A stretch of 64,000 nt of DNA from an uncultured Clostridia bacterium (GTDB lineage: Bacteria > Bacillota > Clostridia > Oscillospirales > QAKW01), in NCBI GenBank assembly GCA_944387895.1, contig CALXGQ010000015.1:1-64000 (forward strand), read 5' to 3'. Each line of letters begins with the position of its first letter. Position 1 is the stretch's first letter. Shown here piece after piece: positions 5,786-59,767 of this stretch. Made by a program: the position numbers and the translations under genes. The notes under the pieces are model-generated. The model made no database searches. It saw only the letters and a list, made by a program, of their open reading frames with translations, and was not told where the DNA came from.

Positions 5786-7299
5786 AAAGCGCCCTCCTTC
5801 AGCAATGCCAGCGCGCAGCGGATTCCGTCTACGGCGGCAGACATGATCCCGCCGGCATATCCGGCTCCTTCGCCGCAGGGGAAAAGTCCCCGGACGGCGC
5901 TTTGGCAGGATGAATCCCGCAGAATGGTGACCGGGGAAGAGCTGCGGGTCTCCGGCCCGGTCAAAACCGCGTCCGGCAGGGAAAAGCCGCACAGCCGCCG
6001 GTCAAAGACCGGGATGGCCTCCGCAAGGGCGTCGCCGATAAATCCGGGCAGAAGCGCCCGGAGGTTGCAGGGGGTCACGCCGGGGCGGTAGCTGGGTTCC
6101 ACGGCGCCGAAGCCGGCGGAGGGGACGTTGCGCAGAAAGTCTCCAAGCCGCTGCGCCGGCGCCAGATAGCCGGATCCGGCGGCCGCAAAGGCGGCCTGCT
6201 CCAGCCTGCGCTGAAAAGATACGCCGGACAGGGGATGCCCGGTTCCGTAGTCGGCGGGGGTTACGGCGGCCAGCAGCGCGCTGTTTGCGTTTTGGCCGTC
6301 GCGGGCGTGGTTGCTCATGCCGTTGGTAACAATCCCTCCCGGCTCGCTGGCGGCGGCAATGACCTGCCCGCCGGGGCACATACAAAAAGTGTAGACCCCA
6401 CGGCCGGCGGAATTGTGCCAGGAAAGCCGGTAATCCGCGGCGCCCAGATAGCGGGCGTCCGCTCCGTATTGCGCCTGATTGATCATGCTCTGGGGATGCT
6501 CGATGCGGACTCCGGCGGAAAAGGCCTTCGGCTGCATGGGCACGCCGTTTTTCAGCAGCATGTCCAGAGTGTCGCGGGCGCTGTGCCCGGCGGCAAGCAG
6601 AACGGCGTCGGTTTCATAGCGCCTGCGCCCGATGGCGCCGGTGATTCTGCCCTCTTCGATCACTAGATCCCGCAGCGCTTCTTCAAAATGGATCTCGCCG
6701 CCCAGAGCGAGGATCTCGCCGCGCAGCCCGCGCACCACCTCCCGCAGCCGATCGGTTCCGATATGGGGCTTGGCGTCGTATCGGATTTCCTCCGGCGCGC
6801 CGTGGGCGGCAAAAATCTCCAGAACCTCCCGGCAGAGCGGGTTTCCGATGCCGGAATGGAGCTTGCCGTCGGAAAAGGTTCCGGCGCCGCCCTCCCCGAA
6901 CTGGATATTGGATTCCGGGTTCAAAATCCCGGTTTTATGAAACAGCTCCACGTCCTTCTGCCGCTGCTCCACCGTTTTTCCCCGCTCCAGAACCAGCGGA
7001 GCGGCTCCGGCTCTGGCCAGGATCAGCGCCGCAAAAAGACCGGCCGGCCCGGTGCCCACAACGATGGGGCGCTTCTTCAGCCCGGCCTTCGGAACGGTCA
7101 GCCCGGGCTCCCGGCTGAAGGCCGCTCCCGGCTCCACCGCTTCCACCGTATAAACGTAAAAAACGGGCGTTTTACGCGCGTCGATGGATCGGCGCAGCAG
7201 CCGCCAGCGCGGATCCCGGATCCGGCTGAGCCCTTCGATTTTCTTTTTCAGCTCCTCCGGAGCGTGGCTCACCGGAAGCCTAATGTCTTTGAGTATCAT
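5782..7299 (-). CDS. FAD-dependent oxidoreductase (COG2509-like)
   Basis: This 505-residue flavoprotein is of unknown substrate. After about 75 residues of family-specific N-terminus comes the FAD dinucleotide-binding motif VVGTGPAGLFAALILARAG (near residues 81-100), then 'LVLERG', and a long glycine-rich block 'IQFGEGGAGTFSDGKL' that characterises the uncharacterised 'FAD-dependent dehydrogenase' group. A second flavin-contact segment lies near the C-terminus ('PCGEGAGYAGGI'). There is no signal peptide. AAGGAAG precedes the ATG. It is followed by the deacetylase in an overlapping two-gene operon, but a functional link between them is not evident. Confidence 0.82.
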   Translation of the reverse strand: MILKDIRLPVSHAPEELKKKIEGLSRIRDPRWRLLRRSIDARKTPVFYVYTVEAVEPGAAFSREPGLTVPKAGLKKRPIVVGTGPAGLFAALILARAGAAPLVLERGKTVEQRQKDVELFHKTGILNPESNIQFGEGGAGTFSDGKLHSGIGNPLCREVLEIFAAHGAPEEIRYDAKPHIGTDRLREVVRGLRGEILALGGEIHFEEALRDLVIEEGRITGAIGRRRYETDAVLLAAGHSARDTLDMLLKNGVPMQPKAFSAGVRIEHPQSMINQAQYGADARYLGAADYRLSWHNSAGRGVYTFCMCPGGQVIAAASEPGGIVTNGMSNHARDGQNANSALLAAVTPADYGTGHPLSGVSFQRRLEQAAFAAAGSGYLAPAQRLGDFLRNVPSAGFGAVEPSYRPGVTPCNLRALLPGFIGDALAEAIPVFDRRLCGFSLPDAVLTGPETRSSSPVTILRDSSCQSAVRGLFPCGEGAGYAGGIMSAAVDGIRCALALLKEGAL

Positions 7300-50860: not shown

Positions 50861-50874
50861 ACAAGATGTTGTGT
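50861..50874 (+). promoter_or_regulatory. NrdR-like box 1
   Basis: ACAAGATGTTGTGT, which on the minus strand reads ACACAACATCTTGT and matches 13 of 14 positions of the NrdR consensus ACACWATATMTWGT. Located upstream of anaerobic ribonucleotide reductase genes. Confidence 0.62.
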
Positions 50875-50913: not shown

Positions 50914-50942
50914 TTGACAAGAGCGGATATATCGTGTAGAAT
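50914..50942 (+). promoter_or_regulatory. Promoter of the anaerobic nrd operon
   Basis: TTGACA (50914-50919), 17 bp, TAGAAT (50937-50942), about 60 bp before the first start codon. Confidence 0.8.
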
Positions 50943-51003: not shown

Positions 51004-51693
51004 ATGACGATTGAAGGGCTTCAAAAACTGACGTTGCTGGATTATCCCGGCAGAACGGCCTGCACGGTCTTTTTGGGCGGCTGTAATTTTCGTTGTCCCT
51101 TCTGCCATAATTTTGACCTGGCAGCCCGGCCGTCCGCACCGCTGATGGATAGCGAAGGGCTTTTGGCATTTCTGCGCAGCCGCAAAAAGCTGCTGGACGG
51201 CGTCGCCATAACCGGCGGAGAACCGCTGCTGCGGCGGGAGCTTCCGGAGCTGCTGCGGGAGATCAAGGCGCTGGGTTATCCGATCAAGCTGGACACAAAC
51301 GGCAGTTTCCCCGGTCGGCTGAAGGCGCTGGTCGAAGAGGGGCTGGTCGATTATGTGGCCATGGACGTTAAAAACGCGCCGGAGCGCTACGGGGAAACGG
51401 CGGGATTTCCGAAGCTGGATCTGGAGCCGATCCGCGAGAGTGCGGCATTTTTGCTGACCGGAGCGGTGGACTATGAATTTCGCACCACCGTGGTGGAGCA
51501 GCTGCACGGGCCGGCGGAAATGGAAGGGATTTCCGAGTGGCTGGCCGGGGCGCAACGCTATTTTTTGCAGTGGTTTCGTCCGTCGGAGCAGGTGCCGAAC
51601 GCGGCGCTGACGGCGCCTTCGGCGGCGACGATGGAGGAATACCTGAAAATCGTGCGGAAAAAGATCCCCGCAGCGGAGCTGAGAGGGCTTTGA
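51004..51693 (+). CDS. nrdG: Anaerobic ribonucleotide reductase activating protein (radical SAM)
   Basis: This 229-residue radical-SAM enzyme would install the glycyl radical on NrdD. The 4Fe-4S motif CNFRCPFC (C-x3-C-x2-C) is near residues 27-34 after 'DYPGRTACTVFLGG', followed by the SAM-binding 'ITGGEPLL' near 70 and 'IKLDTNGSFPGRL' near 98. It belongs to the group annotated 'anaerobic ribonucleoside-triphosphate reductase activating protein', larger than E. coli NrdG (154 residues). The start at 51004 follows AAAGGA. It precedes nrdD by 86 bp under an NrdR-controlled-looking promoter, which supports the role. Confidence 0.9.
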   Translation: MTIEGLQKLTLLDYPGRTACTVFLGGCNFRCPFCHNFDLAARPSAPLMDSEGLLAFLRSRKKLLDGVAITGGEPLLRRELPELLREIKALGYPIKLDTNGSFPGRLKALVEEGLVDYVAMDVKNAPERYGETAGFPKLDLEPIRESAAFLLTGAVDYEFRTTVVEQLHGPAEMEGISEWLAGAQRYFLQWFRPSEQVPNAALTAPSAATMEEYLKIVRKKIPAAELRGL

Positions 51694-51779: not shown

Positions 51780-54167
51780 ATGTATAACGTAATCAAACGC
51801 GACGGGCAGGAAACAGATTTTAATATTTCCAAGATCAGCACCGCGATCCAGAAGGCCTTTGACGCGCTGGGAAAGGAATCTCATCCCAGCGTCATCGACC
51901 TGCTGGCGCTGAAGGTGACCGCTCATTTTGAGAGCAAGGTCAAGGACGGCAAGATCGCTGTGGAGGATATTCAGGACAGCGTGGAGGCGGTACTGAGCGA
52001 ATCCGGCTATGCGGACGTGGCGAAGGCGTATATTCTTTACCGCAAGCAGCGGGAAAAGGTGCGGAATCTCAAGACTACCTTTTTGGATTATAAGGCGCTG
52101 GTGGATAGCTATGTCAACGTAACCGACTGGCGGGTGAAGGAAAATTCAACCGTCACCTATTCGGTGGGCGGCCTGATTCTTTCCAACAGCGGCGCCATCA
52201 CCGCCAATTACTGGCTCAGCGAAATTTACGACGCTGAAATCGCTGACGCGCACCGCAATGCGGACGTGCATATCCATGATCTTTCCATGCTGACCGGCTA
52301 CTGCGCGGGCTGGTCTCTCAAGCAGCTGATCAAAGAGGGGCTGGGCGGCGTTCCCGGCAAGATCACCTCCTCGCCCGCCAAGCATCTGGTTTCCCTCTGC
52401 AATCAGATGGTTAACTTCCTCGGCATCATGCAAAACGAGTGGGCCGGCGCCCAGGCGTTCAGCTCCTTTGATACCTATTTGGCGCCCTTTGTCCGGGTGG
52501 ATAACCTGAGCTACTGGGAGGTCAAAAACTGCATTCAGTCCTTTGTTTACGGTGTGAATACGCCCAGCCGCTGGGGAACGCAGGCGCCTTTCTCCAATAT
52601 CACCCTGGACTGGACGGTGCCGTCGGATCTGAAGGATCTTCCTGCCATTGTGGGCGGGAAGGAGATGGACTTCACCTATGGCGACTGTAAAAAAGAGATG
52701 GATATGATCAACCGCGCCTTCATCGAAACGATGATCGAAGGGGACGCCAACGGCCGCGGTTTCCAGTATCCCATCCCCACATATTCCATCACCCGGGACT
52801 TCGACTGGTCGGAAACCCAGAACAACAAGCTTCTCTTTGAAATGACCGCGAAGTACGGAACGCCTTATTTTTCCAATTATATCAACAGCGATATGGAGCC
52901 CAGCGACGTGCGCAGTATGTGCTGCCGCCTGCGGCTGGATCTCCGGGAGCTGCGTAAAAAGTCCGGCGGATTTTTCGGTTCCGGGGAAAGCACCGGTTCT
53001 GTGGGCGTTGTTACCATCAATCTGCCCCGCATCGCATTCCAGTCCGCCAGCGAAGAGGAATTCTATGCCCGTCTGGATCGGCTGATGGATATTTCCGCCC
53101 GGTCGCTCCATATCAAGCGCACGGTCATCACCAAGTTCCTCAATGAAGGGCTTTATCCCTATACCAAGCGGTATCTGGGCTCCTTTGATAATCACTTTTC
53201 CACCATCGGTCTGGTGGGGATGAACGAAGCGGCGCTCAATGCCTGCTGGCTCAAAAAGAACCTGACGACCGCCGAAGGTCAGCAGTTTGCCAAGGATGTG
53301 CTGAATCATATGCGGGAGCGCCTTTCGGATTATCAGGAGCAATACGGCGATCTCTATAATCTGGAGGCTACGCCGGCGGAATCCACTTCTTACCGGCTGG
53401 CCAAGCACGATGTCAAGCGGTTCCCGGGCATTGTTACCGCGAATATGGACGGCACGCCCTATTATACCAATTCCTCCCATCTTCCGGTGGGCTTTACCGA
53501 CGATATCTTTACGGCTCTGGATATGCAGGACGAGCTTCATACCCTTTATACGTCCGGAACGGTCTTTCACGCTTATATGGGCGAAAAGCTGCCGGATTGG
53601 AAGGCGGCGGCCGACCTGGTGCGGAAGATCGCGGAAAATTATCGCCTGCCCTATTATTCGATGTCCCCCACCTATTCCGTATGTAAAAACCACGGCTATA
53701 TCACCGGCGAGCAGTACTCCTGCCCGCACTGCGGCGAGAATACTGAGGTATACAGCCGGATCACCGGGTATTACCGCCCGGTTCAGAACTGGAACGACGG
53801 CAAGGCGCAGGAGTTCAAGGATCGCCGCCTGTATGATCAGCGGATCGCCGCCACCAAGATCCCCACGCCGCATACCTGCGGGTGCTGTGGCGGGGACGCG
53901 GAGCCGGAGGTGATCGGCGGAAACCGGGTGCTGCTTTTCACGACCCAGACCTGCCCCAACTGTAAAATGGCCGCTTCCATGCTGGATCAGGCGGAGATCA
54001 GCTATGAAAAGCTGGACGCCGAAGCGCCGGAAAACCGGTCTCTGGTGGAGGCGTATCAGATCAACCGTGCGCCGACGCTGATCGTGGAGACCGACGGCGG
54101 GATCGAAAAGCTGACCAACGCTTCCGAGATCCGCAGCTATATCAAGCGGGTAAGCGCTCATGTATGA
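51780..54167 (+). CDS. nrdD: Anaerobic ribonucleoside-triphosphate reductase with C-terminal redoxin domain
   Basis: This 795-residue class III reductase makes dNTPs without oxygen. An N-terminal ATP cone (about 3-95, 'VIKRDGQETDFNISKI') senses ATP/dATP. The catalytic barrel includes 'SMCCRLRLD' near residue 380 (thiyl Cys). The zinc site is Cys635, Cys648 and Cys651, with Gly663 in 'RITGYYRPVQNWN' as glycyl-radical site; this NrdD2-type ending differs from E. coli RVCGYLG. A linker with CGCC (700-703) leads to a glutaredoxin/NrdH-like domain (about 712-795) with CPNC at 725-728 and cis-Pro in 'NRAPTLIV'. The start at 51780 follows GGAGG. Confidence 0.93.
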   Translation: MYNVIKRDGQETDFNISKISTAIQKAFDALGKESHPSVIDLLALKVTAHFESKVKDGKIAVEDIQDSVEAVLSESGYADVAKAYILYRKQREKVRNLKTTFLDYKALVDSYVNVTDWRVKENSTVTYSVGGLILSNSGAITANYWLSEIYDAEIADAHRNADVHIHDLSMLTGYCAGWSLKQLIKEGLGGVPGKITSSPAKHLVSLCNQMVNFLGIMQNEWAGAQAFSSFDTYLAPFVRVDNLSYWEVKNCIQSFVYGVNTPSRWGTQAPFSNITLDWTVPSDLKDLPAIVGGKEMDFTYGDCKKEMDMINRAFIETMIEGDANGRGFQYPIPTYSITRDFDWSETQNNKLLFEMTAKYGTPYFSNYINSDMEPSDVRSMCCRLRLDLRELRKKSGGFFGSGESTGSVGVVTINLPRIAFQSASEEEFYARLDRLMDISARSLHIKRTVITKFLNEGLYPYTKRYLGSFDNHFSTIGLVGMNEAALNACWLKKNLTTAEGQQFAKDVLNHMRERLSDYQEQYGDLYNLEATPAESTSYRLAKHDVKRFPGIVTANMDGTPYYTNSSHLPVGFTDDIFTALDMQDELHTLYTSGTVFHAYMGEKLPDWKAAADLVRKIAENYRLPYYSMSPTYSVCKNHGYITGEQYSCPHCGENTEVYSRITGYYRPVQNWNDGKAQEFKDRRLYDQRIAATKIPTPHTCGCCGGDAEPEVIGGNRVLLFTTQTCPNCKMAASMLDQAEISYEKLDAEAPENRSLVEAYQINRAPTLIVETDGGIEKLTNASEIRSYIKRVSAHV

Positions 54168-55065
54168 TGTGATCGTGATCGGCGGCGGAACCGCCGGGCT
54201 GACTGCGGCGATTTACCTGCTGCGCGCCGGGAAAACGGTTCTGATTCTGGAATCGACCGCTCTGGGCGGCCAGATCACCGCCTCTGCCCGGATCGAGAAT
54301 TTCCCCGGCCTGTATGGGGTCAGCGGTGTGGAATACGCCGATAAGCTGGCGGATCAGGTTTATCGGTTCGGCGGCGTTATCGAGCCGGCCGAGGTCGGCG
54401 GCGCGGTCCGGGAGGGAGAACATTTTGTCGTTGAAACCACGGACGGCGAGCGTTACCAGGCCGGAGCGCTGATCCTGGCGACCGGCTCCGTGCACCGCCA
54501 TCTGGGGCTGGAGCGGGAAGAAACGCTTCCTGGGATCTCCTATTGCGCGGTCTGCGACGGTGCTTTTTATAAGGGCAGGGACGTTGCGGTAGTCGGCGGC
54601 GGAAATGCTGCGGTGCAGTCGGCTCTTGCGCTGGCGGAGCTTTGCCGGAAGGTGACGCTGGTTCACCGGCGGGCAGGCTTCCGCTGCGAGCCGGTGCTGC
54701 TGGAGCGGCTCAAAAAGGCGCCGAACGTGGAGCTCTGCACCGGATATGTGGTTCAGAGCCTGATCGGCGAAGAAAAGCTTGAGGCGCTGGAGCTTCGGGG
54801 CGGGGAACAGACGAAAACCCTGCCGGTAGACGGCCTCTTCATCGCGGTGGGGCAGCAGCCGGCGAACGAGCCCTTCCGGGATCTGGTGCGGCTGGACGAA
54901 GCCGGCTATATCGCGGCGGGGGAGGATTGCCAAACTTCGGAACCGGGCGTTTTTGCAGCTGGGGACTGCCGCCAAAAAGCGGTGCGGCAGCTGGTTACCG
55001 CCGCTGCGGACGGCGCGGTGGCAGGGCTGGCGGCCAATGCCTATCTGGACGGTCTGAACTCCTGA
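54160..55065 (+). CDS. trxB: Thioredoxin-reductase-like flavoprotein
   Basis: This 301-residue FAD enzyme of the thioredoxin reductase family has FAD motif 'VIVIGGGTAGLTAAIYLLRAG' at residues 4-24, active-site CAVC near 128-131 ('ISYCAVCDGAFYKG'), pyridine-nucleotide fold 'VAVVGGGNAAVQSALALAE' near 144 and 'HRRAGFR' near 168 (HRRxxxR, favouring NADPH), then 'GVFAAGDCR' near 265. It overlaps the 3' end of nrdD by 8 bp, so translation is tightly coupled to the reductase carrying a redoxin domain; that domain is the likely partner. A general thioredoxin reductase role remains possible. Confidence 0.92.
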   Translation: MYDVIVIGGGTAGLTAAIYLLRAGKTVLILESTALGGQITASARIENFPGLYGVSGVEYADKLADQVYRFGGVIEPAEVGGAVREGEHFVVETTDGERYQAGALILATGSVHRHLGLEREETLPGISYCAVCDGAFYKGRDVAVVGGGNAAVQSALALAELCRKVTLVHRRAGFRCEPVLLERLKKAPNVELCTGYVVQSLIGEEKLEALELRGGEQTKTLPVDGLFIAVGQQPANEPFRDLVRLDEAGYIAAGEDCQTSEPGVFAAGDCRQKAVRQLVTAAADGAVAGLAANAYLDGLNS

Positions 55066-55071
55066 AAATCA

Positions 55072-55110
55072 GGGAAGAACAGCGGATTTTCCGCTTTCTT
55101 CCCGTTTTTT
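55072..55110 (+). terminator. Terminator of the nrd operon
   Basis: A stem pairs GGGAAGAA with TTCTTCCC around an inner AGCGG/CCGCT hairpin (55072-55103), then GTTTTTT. Confidence 0.88.
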
Positions 55111-55173
55111 ATTGCGAAAAGATTCGCGGTATGGTATTCTTGAAACAGGTTATTTTTGATGGGGAGAGAACAT

Positions 55174-58039: not shown

Positions 58040-59767
58040 ATGGACGAGAATAAGAATAAAATGCCGGAAGGACATATTTCCCCATCGAGCGGCTGCCCGG
58101 AGCAGCCGCCTGTGAGCGGGAAGGAAGCAGCCGGCAGGGAATTGCCTGATTGGAATCACGAAGGAACAGAAGCCGCCGGGCAGTCCGCCGCACCGGAGGC
58201 TGCTGCCATGGGCGGAGAGCCCGCCGGGCAGATGAACCCGCCGGAGGCTGCTGCCATGGGCGGAGAGCCCGCCGGGCAGATGAACCCGCCGGAAGCTGCC
58301 GCCATGGGTGGAGAGCCGGCCGGGCAGATGAACCCGCCGGAGGCTGCCGCCATGGGTGGAGAGCCTGCCGGGCAGTCCGCCGCACCGGAGGCTGCCGCCA
58401 TGGGCGGAGAGCCCGCCGGGCAGATGAACGTGCCGGAAGCTGCCGCCATGGGTGGAGAGCCTGCCGGGCAGATGAACCCGCCGGAGGCTGCCGCCATGGG
58501 CGGAGAGCCCGCCGGGCAGAACGCCGCAGAAAGCCGGAGCTATACCTATCAGAATCCCCATCCCTATCAGAATATGAATCCCTACGGGTATCCCGTTGCA
58601 AAAAAGAAGGGCAATAAAACGGCGGTTATCGTAGCGGCGGTGGCGGCGGGCGTTATGCTGATTTGCTGCCTTCTGATCATTGCTTCGTTCTTTGTCGGCA
58701 ATCTGGAAACGCTGCTTCCGGAAACAGACAGCGGCGGGGACAGCAGTACTGGAGAAATCATCGGCGGAGGATCATCGGAATCTCAGAGCGGCGCGCAGCG
58801 GGACGAGGAAACGGTCTATAATATGCCGGAAATCACCAAAGAAGAAAAGACCGGCGAGGAGCTTACGCTGGTCGAGATCAATAAAAAGGTGCAGAACAGC
58901 GTGGTTGGGATCCTGATTTCCGAGGACGGCAGAATGGAAGCGAGCTTTTCCGGATCCGGGTTCATCATCAGCCAGGACGGCTATATCATCACCAATGATC
59001 ATGTGGTGGAGGGTGCGGCGCAGGTTGTCGTTGTCCTCAGCGATGGCATTACAGAGTACGACGCGGTGATCGTCGGCGAAGATGATCGCTCCGATCTTGC
59101 GATTCTGAAGATCGACGCGGAAGGCCTTTCCCCTGTTGAGCTGGGGGACAGCGACGATCTGGAGGTAGGCGAAACGGTGGCCGCCATCGGCAACCCCTAC
59201 GGCATGGAGCTGGCGGGCACCCTGACGAACGGGATCATCTCGGCGCTGAACCGGAAAATCGAGATGAACGGAACCTTCATGACGCTGATCCAGACCAACG
59301 CGTCCATCAACCCCGGAAACAGCGGCGGGCCGCTGGTCAACGCCTATGGCCAGGTCGTCGGGATTACCTCTTCCAAGCTGGTAGCCACGGAATATGAGGG
59401 AATCGGCTTTGCGATCCCCATCAATTACGTTGTGGAGGTGGCGGAGGAGCTGATCAACTACGGCTACGTCAAGACCCGCGCCTATATCGGCATCCAGGGG
59501 CAGGATCTGACGGAAACCTACGCGGCGTATCACAATCTGCCCCAGGGCGTTTATGTTTCCTATGTGGATCCGGAATGCGACGCGGCGGCCAAGGGGCTTC
59601 AGGAAGGGGACGTGATCATCGGGTTCAACGGCGAGGAGATCTCCTCCATGGCGGAACTGAACGACCTGAAGGATTCCTTCCATCCCGGAGACGTCGTTAC
59701 CATTAAAATATGGCGCAACGGCGAGGAGCTGGATATCACCATCAACCTCACCGAAGCAACCGGCTGA
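58040..59767 (+). CDS. HtrA-like membrane-anchored serine protease with repetitive N-terminus
   Basis: This 575-residue protein has a cytoplasmic N-terminus of 48 residues, then seven 16-residue repeats (49-160; typical unit MNPPEAAAMGGEPAGQ), a Tyr/Asn/Pro-rich stretch, one membrane helix (about 194-219), an extracellular trypsin-like domain with catalytic triad His321 ('ITNDHVVEG'), Asp352 ('DDRSDLAILKI') and Ser428 ('NPGNSGGPLVN'), and one PDZ domain (about 485-570). HtrA proteases remove misfolded envelope proteins. It forms an operon with the preceding two-component genes (10-bp gap) and ends in a strong terminator. Confidence 0.92.
   Translation: MDENKNKMPEGHISPSSGCPEQPPVSGKEAAGRELPDWNHEGTEAAGQSAAPEAAAMGGEPAGQMNPPEAAAMGGEPAGQMNPPEAAAMGGEPAGQMNPPEAAAMGGEPAGQSAAPEAAAMGGEPAGQMNVPEAAAMGGEPAGQMNPPEAAAMGGEPAGQNAAESRSYTYQNPHPYQNMNPYGYPVAKKKGNKTAVIVAAVAAGVMLICCLLIIASFFVGNLETLLPETDSGGDSSTGEIIGGGSSESQSGAQRDEETVYNMPEITKEEKTGEELTLVEINKKVQNSVVGILISEDGRMEASFSGSGFIISQDGYIITNDHVVEGAAQVVVVLSDGITEYDAVIVGEDDRSDLAILKIDAEGLSPVELGDSDDLEVGETVAAIGNPYGMELAGTLTNGIISALNRKIEMNGTFMTLIQTNASINPGNSGGPLVNAYGQVVGITSSKLVATEYEGIGFAIPINYVVEVAEELINYGYVKTRAYIGIQGQDLTETYAAYHNLPQGVYVSYVDPECDAAAKGLQEGDVIIGFNGEEISSMAELNDLKDSFHPGDVVTIKIWRNGEELDITINLTEATG
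58184..58519 (+). repeat. Seven 48-bp tandem repeats within the htrA-like gene
   Basis: Exactly 7 x 48 bp encode 16-residue units. Five start MN (MNPPEAAAM or MNVPEAAAM) and two start SA (SAAPEAAAM), and all end GGEPAGQ. DNA copies differ at synonymous positions (GCT/GCC, GGC/GGT). Because 48 is a multiple of 3, copy-number change keeps the frame. Confidence 0.93.

Follow-up and report, generated by a model that had tools for sequence, protein, structure and literature searches.

In Facklamia ignava, a glutaredoxin (Grx) domain fused to a component of class I ribonucleotide reductase (RNR) has been shown to reduce that enzyme (PMC6187632), and the same paper, from 2018, mentions in one line a grx::nrdD fusion of Lachnospiraceae bacterium TWA4. 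The NrdD2 enzyme of Neisseria bacilliformis works with thioredoxin (Trx), thioredoxin reductase (TrxR) and NADPH (PMC9669993, PMC4493059), use of NrdH is listed for the class III RNR of Methanosarcina barkeri (PMC9176816), and the glycine-reductase operon of C. difficile has its own trxA3-trxB3 (PMC10880999). Among double-cysteine class III RNRs, 83% keep the Met of an MCCR finger loop and seem equipped for formate or thioredoxin (PMC9669993, section 2.5). Here we describe a locus in the first 64,000 nucleotides (the window) of contig CALXGQ010000015.1 from an uncultured Clostridia bacterium (assembly GCA_944387895.1), which encodes a class III RNR, NrdD, with a redoxin domain at its C-terminus and, overlapping it, a TrxB-type thioredoxin reductase. 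Judging from sequences and structural models, we find it likely that electrons would pass from NADPH through TrxB and the tethered redoxin to the disulfide of an NrdD2-type active site.

This locus resembles each of the systems above in part. As in F. ignava, a Grx-type domain is fused to an RNR component, and reduction of its own RNR is predicted here; there, however, the domain is N-terminal on the class I protein NrdB and was assayed with glutathione, whereas here it is C-terminal on the class III protein NrdD, with TrxB in the operon. The TWA4 fusion also has a redoxin-like domain on NrdD and possibly belongs to the same family, but it was reported as a single case, while here 124 distinct fused sequences make up a clade described by gene order and phylogeny. 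The N. bacilliformis enzyme shares the double-cysteine finger loop and the active-site Glu, and thiol reduction, shown there, is predicted here; its finger loop is SCCR, without Met, and its redoxin is separate, in contrast to the MCCR with Met, the fused redoxin and the operon-borne trxB of our locus. The M. barkeri RNR is reportedly an NrdD3, said to work with NrdH and a ferredoxin disulfide reductase. It is similar in that a Grx-like redoxin serves a class III RNR (again, predicted here), and different in that its active site has neither Met nor Glu, whereas MCCR and Glu are combined here with a fused redoxin and a flavin TrxB. The C. difficile operon, too, combines metabolic genes with a thioredoxin reductase of their own, but its thioredoxin is separate and its enzyme is unrelated to NrdD. 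Our search of the literature, which covered papers in part, turned up only that one line in PMC6187632 and no study of an NrdD with a fused redoxin; in PMC9669993, which surveys RNR extensions, neither "glutaredoxin" nor "redoxin" occurs as a word in the main text. In the papers searched we did not come upon the spread of the fusion across a whole clade, the linked TrxB and its co-variation, the switch of nucleotide motif or the status as sole RNR that are described below.

A redoxin domain is fused to the C-terminus of NrdD

The preliminary description of this locus had proposed that the protein ends in a redoxin-like domain with CPNC at residues 725-728 and a cis-Pro, and that trxB overlaps its gene by 8 bp. 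Coordinates, motifs and overlap were re-read from the sequence as stated, and the domain is well supported. The Pfam Glutaredoxin model (PF00462) matches residues 717-769 at 26.5 bits against a cut-off of 22.9, and AlphaFold2, given the domain alone (68 sequences), predicts a minimal redoxin fold, with the redoxin order of strands and helices, at a mean pLDDT of 91.5. Fold, CxxC and cis-Pro together make this a dithiol redoxin of the Trx/Grx superfamily. Both CPNC cysteines and the cis-Pro are the only positions invariant in 68/68 aligned domains, whose identity to the window's domain is 29 to 48% (64 to 78% for full fused proteins). The motif reads CPNC in 114 of the 124 distinct fused sequences, CPKC in 7, CVNC in 2 and CHNC in 1, the two CVNC proteins being L177 (G079:C12) and L176 (G084:C27).

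Searches with the redoxin model (Foldseek and VIA-align) returned thioredoxins, glutaredoxins, NrdH proteins and GST N-domains. The NrdH and Grx matches reach Z of about 10 (NrdH 4fiw: Z 10.6, rmsd 2.1, 74 aligned), level with many GST folds, and we therefore claim no closer placement. It is not NrdH proper by TIGR02194, for which the whole fused protein scores 18.7 bits against a cut-off of 85.75. The best NCBIfam model for the NrdD, NF006126, stops at residue 687 and leaves the redoxin uncovered.

The linker before the domain has very low confidence in the full-length model (Table 1), so the redoxin is probably tethered flexibly rather than rigidly packed. A role of the CGCC cysteines in this linker as an electron relay, proposed earlier, was rejected: the motif is present here, and C700, C702 and C703 occur in just 8, 8 and 10 of the 86 fused sequences compared. 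Another pair, C207 and C303, is complete in 121/121 fused rows (a few of them repeats), in 3/4 unfused rows of the clade and in 0/25 sister enzymes, in a comparison which excluded long (>900 aa), short and MGCR rows. As these are 2 of 47 clade-diagnostic columns, there is no clear enrichment, and a C207/C303 relay is a lead only.

The fused NrdD has an NrdD2-type active site

The protein is a class III RNR by its NRDD domain, the Gly663 motif, the C-terminal cysteines and the NrdG2 encoded upstream. In the Wei scheme, as told in PMC4493059, a third active-site Cys together with a Glu places an enzyme in NrdD2, a Met being allowed. Both MCCR and Glu529 are found in 86/86 fused sequences, and C175 is likewise kept in 86/86; these residues uphold the NrdD2-type site proposed before. 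The formate-type NrdD1 signature (a single-cysteine MGCR finger loop without Glu) and the methanogen-type NrdD3 signature (QCCR or QCCA, with neither Met nor Glu) are both absent from the protein. One fused NrdD of a wider set, L177, has MYCR for MCCR; its genome also holds a second NrdD, which is unfused and has MCCR.

C381, C382 and E529 are present in all 25 unfused enzymes of this broad type in our tree, and Met380 in 24 of them, four of the 25 sitting inside or just beside the fused clade, while the Glu is missing from 6/6 formate-type MGCR enzymes. Since unfused relatives are already so equipped, it was not the fusion that created the thiol-type site; on residue comparison the site predates the fusion, and the redoxin was added to an enzyme that had it.

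A trxB gene accompanies most fused cellular nrdD genes

The preliminary description suggested counting trxB neighbours across NrdD families, and the count separates fused from unfused genes. Among 100 distinct fused cellular nrdD loci with room for it, 74 have a trxB downstream, on the same strand and no more than 1.5 kb away (57/75 best-match loci, 16/20 order-level loci, 0/4 phylum-sample loci, plus the window), vs 0/52 for unfused nrdD (27 MGCR, 25 MCCR). These counts leave out two cellular and three viral repeats (75/102 with the cellular ones), and three cellular loci at contig ends stand outside the 100. The gaps between nrdD and trxB are mostly short, the lowest, -8 bp, being common to the window and four other loci. 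The TrxB profile was made from linked TrxBs and used with a threshold of 150 bits; TrxBs encoded elsewhere in the relatives score 180 to 409 bits against it, and ordinary TrxB neighbours would therefore have shown up.

The window's TrxB has the CAVC described before, at residues 129-132, and its full-length score with the TrxB equivalog model TIGR01292, 316.4 bits, falls short of the cut-off of 343.45. Linked TrxBs form one clade (67 rows, 95% SH-aLRT) separate from eight TrxB-type proteins whose genes lie elsewhere in relatives, in a tree whose outside sample is small: these eight (one being the CxxC-less protein of the window's genome) and three distant outgroup sequences. All our trees are quick searches with SH-aLRT support only. 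Redoxin and TrxB also co-vary beyond the NrdD core: the partial Mantel correlation given the core is 0.43 over 63 loci and 0.38 within the 43 QxL loci, with 0/2000 permutations as high in either case.

Electron donor of TrxB

NADPH had been named as the donor, and this fits the window, though not most of the family. The window's TrxB has the motifs of an NADPH thioredoxin reductase (NTR), namely CAVC, GGGNAA (GGGxxA) and HRRAGFR (HRRxxxR); because the latter two motifs are kept, it probably uses NADPH. It also differs from ferredoxin-linked flavin TrxR (FFTR) enzymes, in which NAD(P)H motifs are absent. Among 64 linked TrxBs, with the window's counted twice (as L001), GGGxxA is kept in all 64 and the NADPH arginines in 20; Gln replaces the His in 43, in 42 of these as QN or QD. 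The Gln-type TrxBs are essentially one clade (45/46 rows, 99% SH-aLRT). HRR is also missing from the other TrxRs aligned in PMC5627308, among them NADH-using ones and others independent of NAD(P)H. As GGGxxA, which binds the pyrophosphate, is retained, the motifs of the Gln type make NADH a fair guess, and some other donor might serve instead. It is a tentative proposal, to which we give slightly less than even weight, that these TrxBs may be a flavoenzyme lineage dedicated to RNR, which evolved together with the fused redoxin and whose largest branch would have dropped NADPH as HRRxxxR became Q(N/D)LxxxTGE and GGGxxA stayed.

Distribution and history of the fusion

The fusion is seen in about a hundred related Clostridia genomes and in phage contigs. 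It occurs in at least 21 of 59 related genomes at the order level, which is a minimum, as partial NrdD matches in G026, G043, G052, G053 and G057 were left out, and in at least 5 of 119 genomes of an even phylum sample, the window's genome included. At least 595 stretches in GTDB genomes encode an NrdD relative; the best 80, a choice biased to close relatives, all reach residue 777 or beyond and all bear the redoxin. For the phylum sample, 60 loci were chosen by hand from about 100 near-full-length NrdD matches, with frames of at least 770 aa included (except G088, G107 and the split match G101:C21), and 7 of the 60, having no countable NrdD match, were dropped. L001, L019 and L023 are duplicates.

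In a tree of 81 NrdDs, 50 fused and 3 unfused rows fall in one clade (99% SH-aLRT), and the fused label needs 4 changes vs a mean of 24.8 for shuffled labels. This fits a history of one gain and about three later losses (L137, L139, L161), as far as sequences tell it. An unfused enzyme from a viral contig, L140, branches just outside the clade. Viral contigs carry fused NrdDs as well, at 21 distinct loci, and so does the phage record MT835493.1. In the viral-contig clade members L131-L137, the match starts near residue 98, without an ATP-cone, and L137 lacks the redoxin as well.

In the loci searched for a split version of the fusion, four free redoxin-like open reading frames were found. One (L119) is the thioredoxin of the window's genome, another (L096) lies in a fused locus, and two (L228, L187) lie in loci with an unfused NrdD. 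In L187 the redoxin is encoded about 2 kb downstream of the unfused nrdD, in the same orientation, and a loose linkage there is conceivable.

The 1.69-Mb genome of the window has one NrdD match and none to class I or class II RNR, and no class I or II match was found in any of the 21 fused genomes. The fused NrdD is the sole detectable RNR in 17/21 related fused genomes, the window's included, and 11 of these 17 are at least 90% complete.

Proposed electron path and its alternatives

In the path that we propose, NrdG2 would install the glycyl radical on Gly663 of NrdD, and each turnover would leave a disulfide between C175 and one of the finger-loop cysteines of MCCR, as happens in N. bacilliformis. 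The CPNC domain would then swing in on its tether and reduce this disulfide, and the TrxB from the overlapping gene would re-reduce the CPNC domain with electrons from NADPH. What we observe is the order of the domains and of the genes, the redoxin fold, the invariant redox residues, the co-variation and a trxB linkage specific to the clade. From these we infer the direction of electron flow, direct contact of the redoxin with the active site, NADPH as the donor and independence from formate. A path through the redoxin is made likely by the confident fold and invariant CxxC and cis-Pro of the domain, the low-confidence linker expected of a tether, the thiol-type pattern of C175, MCCR and Glu529, the clade-specific linkage of trxB, the TrxB clade with its redoxin co-variation, the sole-RNR status, the fused genomes in which no PFL-like match was found (3/14 scanned) and the F. 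ignava precedent.

Several observations speak against this path. Met380, which is tied to formate use, is present in 86/86 fused sequences; formate-dependent residues had been named beforehand as grounds for giving up the redoxin path, and they are thus partly there; judged by sequence, formate may be used as well. The window's genome encodes a PFL-like gene, and formate is therefore probably at hand. According to the tree, the fusion was lost about three times. No trxB adjoins the fused nrdD in any of 20 distinct viral-contig loci with room (0/20) or in the four fused loci of the wider phylum sample (0/4). Finally, the full-length model, with a mean pLDDT of 75 and a low-confidence finger loop, is too weak to place the redoxin in a docked position.

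As Met380 is kept and the genome is probably able to make formate, formate is a serious rival as main or alternative reductant, and both routes may coexist. In its strict form, formate would be the main reductant through Met380 and C175, and redoxin and TrxB would just rescue oxidised cysteines of the oxygen-sensitive NrdD; this we regard as unlikely. On one hand, MCCR enzymes are said to hold the parts for either reductant (PMC9669993, section 2.5), and PFL-like matches occur in 11/14 fused genomes scanned as well as in the window's genome, in keeping with the invariant Met380. On the other hand, the fused enzymes keep MCCR and Glu529, the latter missing from the formate-type MGCR enzymes (6/6); three of the 14 genomes (G013, G017, G029) have no PFL-like match, each with the fused NrdD as its only detected RNR; and the redoxin is kept in 50/53 clade members in the tree. 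Fusion and PFL absence are not correlated, since 11/14 fused genomes are PFL-like positive and G012 and G028, in which only an unfused NrdD was seen, lack PFL.

It is also improbable, more so than the strict formate scheme, that trxB is a housekeeping reductase for free thioredoxin which merely sits in the operon, the fused redoxin being fed from elsewhere. This TrxB is the only one with CxxC found in the genome, as the second TrxB-like flavoprotein (G000:C19:30851-31744, L112) has no CxxC and neither NAD(P)H motif, and a separate thioredoxin gene lies elsewhere, about 1.2 kb after the PFL-like gene. The window's TrxB therefore probably feeds both thioredoxin and NrdD. Likewise, in G003 and G004, two near-complete relatives, nothing but the linked TrxB matches at E 1e-40 or better, and 26 of the 100 distinct fused loci with room have no adjoining trxB. 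Such a housekeeping role does not account for the clade-specific linkage (74/100 vs 0/52) or for linked TrxBs being one clade that co-varies with the redoxin beyond the NrdD core, and G007 and G013 hold a second, separate TrxB besides the linked one. The description of TrxB as NrdD's own reductase thus holds for the linkage, which is specific to fused NrdDs, but not for exclusive service to NrdD.

We find it hardly credible that the redoxin domain acts on NrdG, on the zinc site or on other proteins of the cell instead of the NrdD active site. Nothing directly favours this, and against it stand the covalent fusion to NrdD, which seems to have arisen once and has long been retained, and the earlier case in which a fused Grx acts on its own RNR (PMC6187632).

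Organization of the locus and other observations

Table 1. Features of the nrdG2-nrdD-trxB locus (positions in the window)
Feature	Position	Strand	Remarks
Promoter-like site TTGACA-17-TAGAAT, upstream of nrdG2	50914..50942	+	11/12 consensus matches; consensus match only
nrdG2, class III RNR activase (radical SAM)	51004..51693	+	TIGR02495 NrdG2, 198 bits, cut-off 131
nrdD-redoxin fusion, 795 aa	51780..54167	+	ATG 51780 behind GGAGGAAAAGAG; stop 54165-54167
ATP-cone, residues 3-92	51786..52055	+	PF03477, 81 bits
NrdD catalytic domain, residues 121-685	52140..53834	+	PF13597, 640 bits, E 6e-192
Finger-loop motif MCCR, residues 380-383	52917..52928	+	M380, C381, C382 in 86/86
Active-site Glu529, aligned to the T. 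maritima NrdD IEQVPAE site (4coi)	53364..53366	+	86/86
Presumed zinc ligands C635, H638, C648, C651	53682..53732	+	85 to 86 of 86; zinc role by analogy
Glycyl-radical Gly663 in RITGYYRPV	53766..53768	+	86/86
Linker, residues 689-713, incl. CGCC 700-703	53844..53918	+	pLDDT below 50
C-terminal redoxin domain, residues 714-795; CPNC 725-728, cis-Pro 765 in NRAPTLIV	53919..54164	+	PF00462; model; invariant CxxC and Pro
Overlap of nrdD stop and trxB start, 8 bp	54160..54167	+	trxB ATG at 54160
trxB, NADPH-type low-molecular-weight thioredoxin reductase, 301 aa	54160..55065	+	TIGR01292; CAVC, GGGNAA, HRRAGFR
HRRAGFR, NADPH 2'-phosphate motif, TrxB residues 169-175	54664..54684	+	
Terminator-like hairpin and U-run, 3' of trxB	55072..55111	+	fold of 55062-55120

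With a promoter-like site before nrdG2 and a hairpin with a U-run after trxB, the three genes nrdG2-nrdD-trxB probably form one transcription unit. The fold containing the hairpin has -23.5 kcal/mol (z -4.8, with 0/200 shuffles as low), and a consensus scan did not include it among its entries. The nrdG2 start was picked by eye at MTIEGLQ; the longest ATG frame begins at 50866, and the TIGR02495 match runs from residue 49 of that frame. There is no NrdR box near the operon, the single match in the window, at 2378 with 3 mismatches, being at chance level. Further downstream, 58040-58617, the head of a gene at 58040-59767 (HtrA-like by eye), consists of near-identical repeats (EAAAMGGEPAGQMNPP) and has long frames in the other reading frames and on the opposite strand as well.

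Some other NrdDs in the surveyed loci are unusual. In several unfused ones (L222, L223, L029; G014, G023, G027, G033, G045), the NRDD match breaks off near profile position 531, and a separate frame of 49 to 156 aa, up to about 1 kb downstream, encodes the glycyl-radical end; these are possibly split NrdDs. No Rfam intron family was found in L222, L223, L219 or L029, and cobalamin riboswitches (L223:3453-3648 and 6922-7116) flank one such nrdD. Glycyl-radical domains of the NrdD type also stand alone, in frames of 86 to 101 aa away from the NrdD match (G018:C40:7095-7202, G042:C38:6316-6420, G041:C2:9675-9773, and further ones on G101:C8, G101:C19, G083:C39, G117:C12, G153:C1 and G123:C149); we take them to be reminiscent of the spare-part protein GrcA. 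Viral contigs hold NrdD frames of 1034 to 1651 aa (L147, L148, L149 and, weaker, L151 and L153), three of the five with a Pfam intein splicing domain above cut-off and one with an HNH endonuclease.

Significance

Formate and thioredoxin both come into question as reductants of MCCR enzymes, and the redoxin-fused clade is natural evidence for thiols. The fused NrdD, usually with its own reductase gene, is a self-contained system in which thiol use by an MCCR enzyme can be tested. If the proposed TrxB lineage is real, a private redoxin would supply class III RNR in many Clostridia with electrons from NADH or some other donor, and formate might act at this MCCR site as a second reductant. As the fused NrdD is the only detectable RNR in 17/21 related genomes with the fusion, this path would carry all DNA-precursor synthesis there.

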